This document shows, in pieces, positions 11,870-21,119 of a DNA stretch of 37,956 bases. Origin of the DNA: a virus; the IMG/VR virus record IMGVR_UViG_3300010157_000131, positions 1 through 37,956 of that record; one strand, 5' to 3'. The translations under genes and the position numbers were made by a program. The notes below the pieces were generated by a model that had not been told where the DNA came from, ran no database searches, and worked only from the letters and a program-made list of their open reading frames with translations. How positions within the stretch are numbered: position 1 is the first letter of the stretch; every line of letters begins with the position of its first letter.

Positions 11870-12887
11870 AGAAGATTTAGAGAAATTAGAAAAAGAAAAT
11901 GATCCAGAGATTGTAGAACTGCGTAAAGCACTTAACAACGCACAGAAGCAATTATCTAAAGCGAAGATACGCAATGACGAATTGGTTATTGCAACCCACC
12001 GTGGAGCGTATGAAGCAATGCTTGCGCTCGGTAAAGTTCAGCCAGTTGCAGCACCGAAAAAAGACGCTCGCAAAACAAACGCCGAAGTTGCACTTGTCCA
12101 CTCGACGGACTGGCAAGGGGCAAAGGTAACTACTTCCTATAACTCAGAAGTAATGCGTACCCGTGTGCTGCAATTCGCTGACAAGATTGTCCACCTTACT
12201 GAATTACAAAGAGCGCATCACCCTGTACGGGAGTGCGTTGTTATGTTTGGTGGGGATTTAGTTGAGGGTCTGTTCAATTATCCAGCGCAACTCTGGCAGA
12301 TTGATGCTTCACTCTTTGGTCAATTCACCAATGTATCTCGCCTATGCGTGGACTTTGTTCGCGTGATGCTGGCAAACTTTGAAAAGGTAACTGTCGTTGC
12401 TGAGTGGGGAAATCACGGGCGTATCGGTGGCAAGCGAGCTGAAGTTCCTAAGAGTGACAATGTGGATCGAATGGTCTATGAAATGTCGCGTCAGATTCTT
12501 GCTAATGAGAAGCGACTTACTTGGGAAGATTGCCCTGAAGATATACAGGAAGTAGAAGTAGGTAACTACCGCGCACTACTGATGCACGGTGACGAACTTG
12601 GTCGCTCAGGTTTTGCATCTCCTGCTGCATGGATTGCTGGTGCTAACCGCTGGAAAGCCGGAGCGCACGACTACGATTTCCATGATATTTATTTGGGTCA
12701 CTATCACCGCCACGCACAAGAGCCAATTCAAAAGAACTTTAATTTGTATTGGACTGGTTCTACTGAGTCAGATAACCGCTACGCAAGAGACTCTATGGCT
12801 GCAAGTGGTATGCCTAGCCAAAGACTTCACTTCGTTGATCCAGTAAAGGGTCGAGTTACTGCTCAATACCAAGTCTGGCTTGATTAA
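11859..12887 (+). CDS. Calcineurin-like metallophosphoesterase
   Basis: 342 residues from the GTG at 11859, chosen because a G-rich site precedes it and it overlaps the upstream gene by 11 bases; a GTG at 11820 is also possible. An N-terminal coiled coil (EEDLEKLEKENDPEIVELRKALNN) precedes the catalytic domain. Metal-binding motifs are in order: HSTDWQG (residue about 84), MFGGDLVEG (about 131), EWGNHGR (185-186), LMHGDE (243) and GHYHRH (281-283). The family includes Mre11/SbcD-like nucleases and phosphatases; which applies is not evident. The downstream gene faces it on the other strand and overlaps it by four bases. Confidence 0.88.
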   Translation: MGLEEDLEKLEKENDPEIVELRKALNNAQKQLSKAKIRNDELVIATHRGAYEAMLALGKVQPVAAPKKDARKTNAEVALVHSTDWQGAKVTTSYNSEVMRTRVLQFADKIVHLTELQRAHHPVRECVVMFGGDLVEGLFNYPAQLWQIDASLFGQFTNVSRLCVDFVRVMLANFEKVTVVAEWGNHGRIGGKRAEVPKSDNVDRMVYEMSRQILANEKRLTWEDCPEDIQEVEVGNYRALLMHGDELGRSGFASPAAWIAGANRWKAGAHDYDFHDIYLGHYHRHAQEPIQKNFNLYWTGSTESDNRYARDSMAASGMPSQRLHFVDPVKGRVTAQYQVWLD

Positions 12888-13426
12888 ATATATTGCTCAA
12901 AAGTCTTAAAGGGTGCGCTAGTGCCGCTGTCATTTTCTTCAGCAATTTCCATTGCTCGTTGAGTATCAGCACCAGCACGAAGCGCACCTGTAGCAAAATC
13001 TGAACCGCTTCCGATTGCATAGATGCCATGCGCTTGAACTGTCACGGTGAACTGTCCATCTATTTCAAATAATTTTCCACATATTGCAACGATAAGAGCC
13101 AAATCCATTGGACTTTCTTTACCCTCTTTATCTGAATCTAAAGCAATCTTATTATCATCTAAGCATTGACGAAGTGATGGCACAACCTTTGCAATAACAA
13201 ATGCGTATAGGTCAGCTTTATCTTTGACTGTTGGAGTAGGTGGATTCCATACATGGAGCGCCACTTGGATAGCGCGTAAGTCACCAGCGCCAGCGATAAT
13301 GTAATTACCCTTTTGAATAATCTTGGTCATGCGCGGATCAGTATAGATTTTACCGTCAGCAGTAATCCTGGAATCAGCTACGATAATTACTCCATTATCT
13401 AACTGCACAGCAATGCAGGTTGTCAT
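12884..13426 (-). CDS. HslV/proteasome-like Ntn-hydrolase peptidase
   Basis: 180 residues, the usual length of HslV. The N-terminus MTTCIAVQLDNGVIIVADSRIT matches the HslV/20S beta pattern: after Met removal Thr1 would be the nucleophile, D17 is in place (VADSR) and K34 (MTKII) corresponds to the catalytic Lys region. YIIAGAGD and GIYAIGSGSDFATGALRAG match the conserved glycine segments. No HslU-like ATPase is encoded here. The start overlaps the stop of the upstream leftward gene (ATGA). It may process a phage or host protein; the fold is well supported, the target unknown. Confidence 0.8.
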   Translation of the reverse strand: MTTCIAVQLDNGVIIVADSRITADGKIYTDPRMTKIIQKGNYIIAGAGDLRAIQVALHVWNPPTPTVKDKADLYAFVIAKVVPSLRQCLDDNKIALDSDKEGKESPMDLALIVAICGKLFEIDGQFTVTVQAHGIYAIGSGSDFATGALRAGADTQRAMEIAEENDSGTSAPFKTFEQYI

Positions 13427-20372: not shown

Positions 20373-20390
20373 TACTTACCCCTAATCTAG

Positions 20391-20441
20391 TTTAATTCTG
20401 CCCCTATTGGCAGACCATAACCCCCGCGCTAACGGGGGTTA
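20391..20441 (-). promoter_or_regulatory. Leader element with dyad and strong hairpin
   Basis: Reading the plus strand: TTTAATTCTGCCC with GGCAGACCA (TCTGCC-N6-GGCAGA), then TAACCCCCG (20418-20426) paired with CGGGGGTTA (20433-20441), 9 perfect pairs, 6-base loop. It lies between the clamp-like gene and the Cys-rich gene. The first element recurs at 21089-21119 upstream of the clamp-like gene. Confidence 0.45.
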
Positions 20442-20459
20442 CAGACCGCTAAGAGAGGG

Positions 20460-21074
20460 TTATTCAACGTATTTCATAGGCATTAGGAGAGCGCGCCAGG
20501 CAATAGCGTCGCCGGTTATTCTCACGCGCATAGGCTTATTCTCACCGTTAAAATAGACCTTCACCGCGTTACCCTTACCGGCTATTTTCGCATAATCGGC
20601 CATAAACGCCGGATTAAACGCCATTCCCTCAACGGCTACCGGGTCGCTTTCACTATTGGCAAGTAGGTCATTCATAGGCGGGTAATTAACGTCTAATAGG
20701 GCCACGGTGAGGGAATCACCAAGCGAGCTAACACTAAGCGCATTACCGGCGCGGGTAAGGTTAATTAAATTGGCCTTATGAGACTTTACTAGTGCAATTA
20801 TGCGCTTAGTATCGTCTAACGAGATAACTGCCGGATCTAAATTACCGTCTAGGGATTTAATAGACCCCTCAATTAGGCGGTATCTATCTGTAGCGCGGGC
20901 AATAAATAAGCCGCCATTACTCTCTATCTGTACCGCGTTAAGCGTGTATAAATTCTTATCCTTGCTAGCGTGAGTAATTACTCCCTCAAGTAATTCTAAG
21001 AGATTATCACCGCTTAGTTCAACATAATTTAACGACGTTGCGGTTATCTTGTTTTCTAGTGTTGTATTAGTCAA
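20460..21074 (-). CDS. DnaN-like sliding clamp, two-domain version
   Basis: 204 residues, about half the length of bacterial DnaN. ATDRYRLIEG (61-70) equals the ATDxxRL motif; NYPPMNDLL (130-138) matches the (F/Y)P..L segment; NPAFMADYAKIAGKG (154-168) resembles NPRYLLDALK; and the end KPMRVRI...WRALLMPMKYVE mirrors the PV.I...(V/I)MPMR C-terminus. It would tether a polymerase to DNA. Two domains would suit a trimer (as PCNA or T4 gp45) rather than DnaN's three-domain dimer; this is inference. No phage polymerase is seen, so it probably serves a host enzyme. Confidence 0.75.
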   Translation of the reverse strand: MTNTTLENKITATSLNYVELSGDNLLELLEGVITHASKDKNLYTLNAVQIESNGGLFIARATDRYRLIEGSIKSLDGNLDPAVISLDDTKRIIALVKSHKANLINLTRAGNALSVSSLGDSLTVALLDVNYPPMNDLLANSESDPVAVEGMAFNPAFMADYAKIAGKGNAVKVYFNGENKPMRVRITGDAIAWRALLMPMKYVE

Positions 21075-21088
21075 TTTTCTATCCCTTG

Positions 21089-21119
21089 TTTAATTCTGCC
21101 CTAATTTAGTGGCAGACCA
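21089..21119 (-). promoter_or_regulatory. Leader element repeated upstream of clamp-like gene
   Basis: TTTAATTCTGCCC and GGCAGACCA, forming TCTGCC-N10-GGCAGA, 15 bases beyond the clamp-like start on its 5' side. Same blocks as at 20391-20417. Confidence 0.45.

Follow-up and report, generated by a model that had tools for sequence, protein, structure and literature searches.

The window, by which we mean the whole 37,956-base virus record from IMG/VR analysed here, encodes a DnaN-like protein in which the standard dimer interface is fully lost and the pocket for clamp-binding motifs is complete. We refer to its gene (20460..21074, minus strand), recognised from its translation, from Pfam and PHROG matches and from a length kept in relatives, as a ring-less DnaN-like "mini-clamp" gene. 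With a probability that we put at roughly one half, its product would form no ring and would act as a receptor that binds clamp-binding motifs and so recruits host proteins of the Pol III type to phage replication intermediates.

The mini-clamp gene

Translation of the open reading frame gave 204 residues, from a TTG start to a stop at 20460-20462, and an AAGGGA Shine-Dalgarno-like site could be read from the sequence 7 nt upstream of the start (21082..21087, minus strand). An initial annotation had recognised DnaN motifs in this 204-residue protein, and all three were located, namely ATDRYRL (residues 61-67), NPAFMADYAKI (residues 154-164) and LLMPMK (residues 196-201). The DnaN kinship was further backed by Pfam and PHROG: the DnaN central domain PF02767 matched over its full extent at residues 20-132 (1.8e-5, just under the curated cut-off), the DnaN C-terminal domain PF02768 matched residues 150-200 through profile positions 72-120 of 121 only, and the protein hit phrog_12598 at 2.8e-17 and phrog_3007 at 4.8e-10. 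PF00712 gave no match above the cut-off in the window or in 10 relatives.

Both ends of the gene are flanked by the imperfect repeat TTTAATTCTGCCC (window 20387-20408 and 21085-21106, 86% alike), which is possibly a regulatory site. Directly downstream lies a strong stem-loop (window 20405-20459, minus strand) with the core AACCCCCGNNNNCGGGGGTT and no T run, folding at -35.8 kcal/mol over 91 nt (z -3.1). A promoter and terminator scan near the gene returned nothing exceeding chance.

A predicted chain of one and a half domains

Using AlphaFold2 with 72 natural homologues aligned, we obtained a confident model of the mini-clamp (pLDDT 91.5, pTM 0.86; 90.0-91.5 over five models), and an earlier run with 14 sequences had returned identical elements at lower confidence. 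The model consists of three strand-helix-strand modules with three inner helices (residues 22-35, 86-98 and 155-165). It superposed on residues 123-366 of E. coli DnaN over 185 residues at 2.2-2.5 Å (Z 17-20) and on mycobacterial DnaN at a Z of about 20. A search of DnaN chains with a profile of the homologues reached E-values down to 2e-14, such that the fold and the sequence kinship of a DnaN clamp are both present (PF02767, profile search, Z up to 20). In the alignment of the 72-homologue profile to 4tr6, positions 12-146 fell on 136-271 and positions 144-197 on 328-379, the latter being the final 52 residues of domain III, and IIIa was skipped. Aligned to E. coli DnaN, the mini-clamp likewise has a gap at 260-315, which corresponds to the missing IIIa of about 56 residues.

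Because IIIa is missing from both the profile alignment and the model, we read the chain as one and a half domains, with the predicted architecture of a whole DnaN domain II followed by IIIb, and with domain I and IIIa absent. In the model, half-domain IIa (residues 16-75; 20850..21029, minus strand) is built from E17-21, H22-35, E47-53, E56-62 and E66-73 and corresponds to about 127-185 of E. coli DnaN, and half-domain IIb (residues 76-128; 20691..20849, minus strand) is built from E76-85, H86-98, E103-109, E112-117 and E120-125 and corresponds to about 187-238. The junction (residues 129-150; 20625..20690, minus strand) marks the site of the missing IIIa according to the profile alignment, the E. 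coli alignment and the superposition, and contains the pocket residues P132 and L137. It is followed by the orphan half-domain IIIb (residues 151-202; 20469..20624, minus strand; H155-165, E172-174, E182-185, E192-197), the counterpart of E. coli 317-366 and of the matched portion of PF02768. The chain does not contain the three domains (I, II and III) of a DnaN clamp. The initial annotation had taken it for a two-domain protein, which would have four inner helices; there are three, and neither the sequence nor the modelled structure contains IIIa. Of that earlier reading as a whole, the kinship to DnaN holds, but the two domains and the trimer deduced from them do not.

Fate of the motif-binding pocket and the dimer interface

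Residues of the pocket for clamp-binding motifs and of the dimer interface have been listed for the clamp (PMC11139829), and these lists defined our sets of 18 pocket and 13 interface positions. All 18 pocket positions, spanning subsites I and II, are present in the mini-clamp, where they form its best-conserved part: across 72 sequences the pocket averaged 3.54 bits compared with 2.56 bits elsewhere, a value that none of 200,000 random sets attained (p < 1e-5). Variation was seen at the equivalents of R246 and V344, the placement of the latter being less certain. In the sister clades, pocket identity amounted to 8-11 of the 18 positions, against 18-22% over the rest of the protein. The pocket wall TDRYRL (residues 62-67, E. 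coli T172-L177; 20874..20891, minus strand) includes T62, D63 and R64, which are near-invariant in the 72 sequences, and the pocket floor MPM (residues 198-200, E. coli M362-M364; 20475..20483, minus strand) includes M198 and P199, which are invariant in the same set across clades only 21-27% identical. This conservation in part reflects descent from DnaN.

The interface positions, by contrast with those of the pocket, are deleted in the window protein (13 of 13), in which a stray interface match corresponds to the disordered N-terminus. The rest of the mini-clamps in the alignment used for the tree lack them too, apart from one stray alignment of a basic N-tail.

A family of phage mini-clamps

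Relatives of the mini-clamp were found at no fewer than 110 IMG/VR loci, at least, and nearly all full-length ones measure 195-210 residues; since the relatives share a length of about 200 residues, shortness is a trait of the family. A truncation or frameshift artefact was ruled out, as length and architecture are common to at least 70 family members and six sister phages. The combination of II and IIIb recurs in Mycobacterium phage Tortellini and related loci, in Rhodococcus phage REQ2 and in the Gordonia phages Matteo, Horus, Jace and Ewald, and the window protein belongs with this actinophage group (PHROG 12598 / 3007) by sequence match as well as by architecture. In a tree built on 175 shared columns, all mini-clamps grouped together, apart from full-length clamps (support 89.3/88), which is consistent with a single origin from an actinobacterial-type DnaN. 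No cellular relatives were found in the cellular genome contigs searched, and no near-identical phage DNA in the phage collection searched. The regulator WhiB was detected in the window and in 10/10 relatives tested, and its matches among 14 control genomes were confined to Corynebacterium; the presence of this gene in the window and ten relatives points to actinobacterial hosts for the window phage and its kin.

Several sister lineages carry additional DNA-binding parts. Basic tails rich in Lys, Ala and Pro extend the C-terminus in Tortellini and REQ2 and the N-terminus in Matteo and Horus, and the Ewald protein (gene 44, L168:19986-21032) carries an FtsK_gamma winged helix fused at its C-terminus (PF09397, 1e-18). 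Such a combination of domains is unusual, and a relative in phage Phishy is annotated as an FtsK-like translocase. The window family is without the DNA-binding tail of its sisters. At the level of fold only, the mini-clamp is also matched by structure predictions for other phage proteins (163-285 residues), including gp111 of Pantoea phage LIET2, which suggests that short clamps may occur outside actinophages too. LIET2 gp111 (L171:10323-10907; 195 residues) is called a DNA polymerase III beta subunit and combines the mini-clamp fold with no Pfam match; its gene adjoins VRR-nuclease and helicase genes and is close to a primase/polymerase.

The naming of these genes is inconsistent. PHROG 12598 and 3007, together with RefSeq NC_041888, NC_016652, NC_048039, NC_070798 and others, label clamp-fold phage proteins as "RusA-like Holliday junction resolvase", whereas GenBank copies of the same genes are labelled as a sliding clamp ("DNA polymerase III sliding clamp" in some records). 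The resolvase names are wrong for the mini-clamp group: no RusA match was obtained in Pfam, the fold is that of a clamp, and the window has a distinct RusA-like gene at another site. An additional gene annotated as RusA-like also occurs in several phages among those examined. The clamp kinship of the sister proteins is already known from the GenBank records. No description of a half-domain DnaN architecture or of ring loss was found in the literature searched, which left out a key review of phage replicases (Kazlauskas and Venclovas 2011).

Replication genes of the carriers

The window phage encodes RecT, a PD-(D/E)XK exonuclease, a RusA-like protein, SSB and an initiator-like protein. Eight large relatives (G001-G008) all encode a DnaB-like helicase and lack RecT, which among these genomes occurs only in the window phage (G000), and in the one of them inspected closely a CHC2 primase and a toprim protein are encoded as well. 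The replication module thus appears to be swapped around a constant mini-clamp gene, with RecT, exonuclease and RusA in the one case and a DnaB-like helicase in the other. Family searches for PolA, PolIII-alpha and PolB gave no matches in either the window or those relatives that were searched, many of whose records may be fragments, and Matteo, whose genome is complete, lacks an annotated polymerase. A search with PF03175 (B-family polymerase) gave no match, but neither did its controls. An HslV-family peptidase-like protein (PHROG 1040) is encoded at 12884-13426 of the window (minus strand), with a similar-looking frame in a relative (L162:15524-16093).

RecT could be ruled out as the partner of the mini-clamp, being absent from eight relatives that have one. 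The same holds for a phage-encoded partner with a canonical clamp-binding motif, as motif counts in the proteins of the window, one relative and Matteo equalled chance. Given that the mini-clamp is common to two replication modules and that no phage motif stands out, host proteins are the likelier ligands.

Proposed function and alternatives

According to the receptor reading, the mini-clamp would be a monomer or a small open assembly that forms no ring. Host proteins would dock in its pocket by their clamp-binding motifs, the likeliest being DnaE1, the Pol III alpha subunit, or another client of the clamp, and would then be brought to phage replication intermediates with no need for a clamp loader. 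In sister lineages the basic tail or the FtsK-gamma winged helix would anchor it on DNA, and in the window family any DNA contact would be made by the basic inner-face helices 2 and 3. The earlier suggestion that the protein competes for or redirects the host polymerase is plausible, because the protein retains a complete, conserved pocket and searches of the phage genomes turned up no polymerase. A plain processivity role, by analogy, is unlikely without a further DNA contact, since the monomeric I272A/L273A variant of the E. coli clamp is unable to support processive synthesis by tethering Pol III (PMC11139829). What speaks against our preferred reading is that the DNA-binding appendages were gained in related lineages and not in the window protein.

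The mini-clamp could instead be a decoy with no role on DNA, soaking up host clamp-binding motifs or the clamp-loader delta subunit and thereby halting host replication or repair. We consider this possible, though clearly less probable than recruitment. An intact pocket on a lost ring is what a decoy would have, the affinity of the monomeric E. coli clamp for delta is about 50-fold that of the dimer, making an open clamp a natural trap (PMC11139829), and in temperate Gordonia phages the gene sits early, within the first three genes past the immunity repressor or Cro. It is this combination of tight delta binding and failure in processive synthesis by a monomeric clamp that keeps the idea alive. 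However, with no polymerase found in them, the phages themselves seem to depend on host Pol III, so blanket sequestration would harm them, and the DNA-binding additions in sister lineages suggest action on DNA and favour an adaptor over a decoy.

Readings that restore a ring fare worse. The twelve helices of the clamp dimer line its ring (PMC11139829), so that four mini-clamp chains with three inner helices each would be needed, not three. A D2 ring of four one-and-a-half-domain chains, with IIIb paired to IIIb and IIa abutting IIa, would reach that count, and IIIb is well conserved and as an orphan half-domain otherwise leaves a face uncovered. Yet such a tetramer, geometrically possible as it is, is unsupported and in our view improbable: it requires two types of contact never seen in clamps and ends up with motif pockets on both faces. 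If true, this two-faced ring would be a clamp architecture not seen before. Joining of the mini-clamp to host DnaN as a hetero-oligomer, in which it would complete or cap a host ring that has opened, is given similarly little credence. The tree joins it to actinobacterial-type DnaN and its unpaired IIa and IIIb faces could contact host domains, but it lacks precisely the surfaces by which DnaN subunits contact one another. The homotrimer like PCNA or T4 gp45 that the initial annotation predicted is the least credible arrangement and very improbable. The chain is near gp45 in length, and phage T4 does have a clamp of three two-domain subunits (PMC9690074), but with one and a half domains three chains supply only nine helices. 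The interface surface on IIIa is gone, as are both standard ring-closing surfaces.

If recruitment by a ring-less receptor is correct, client docking by DnaN would be separable from the encircling of DNA, with a conserved phage family keeping the pocket and discarding the ring. An explanation would likewise be at hand for many short phage genes labelled "sliding clamp" or "RusA-like", which currently pass for ordinary clamps or resolvases. As a small pocket protein of natural origin, the mini-clamp further lends itself to studying the bacterial clamp interactome, a drug target, or to blocking it.

Comparison with known sliding clamps

Sliding clamps are described as six-domain rings made of two three-domain or three two-domain subunits (PMC9690074). 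Bacterial DnaN (E. coli beta, mycobacterial DnaN) resembles the mini-clamp in the fold of II and IIIb, in the pocket and in the C-terminal MPM/MPMR, but has 366 residues as opposed to 204, the mini-clamp being devoid of domain I, IIIa and any dimer-interface residue. The short clamps of Tortellini, REQ2, Matteo, Horus, Jace and Ewald share II and IIIb with the window family and are joined to it in the tree (89.3/88), yet are only about 20-27% identical, several bear basic tails or FtsK_gamma, neither of which occurs in the window family, and they are often mislabelled as RusA-like. E. coli beta*, a shorter dnaN product made after UV, is a clamp shortened from the N terminus; unlike the mini-clamp, it keeps all of domain III and hence two full domains. 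PCNA and T4 gp45 share the superfamily and the clamp fold, but each of their chains has two full domains and closes into a trimer, whereas the mini-clamp has three half-domains. UL42 and UL44 of herpesviruses are PCNA-type two-domain proteins not known to have a DnaN pocket. They combine a clamp fold with direct DNA binding without a loader and form no closed ring (PMC9690074), and the likeness of the mini-clamp to them would lie in the way of working only.
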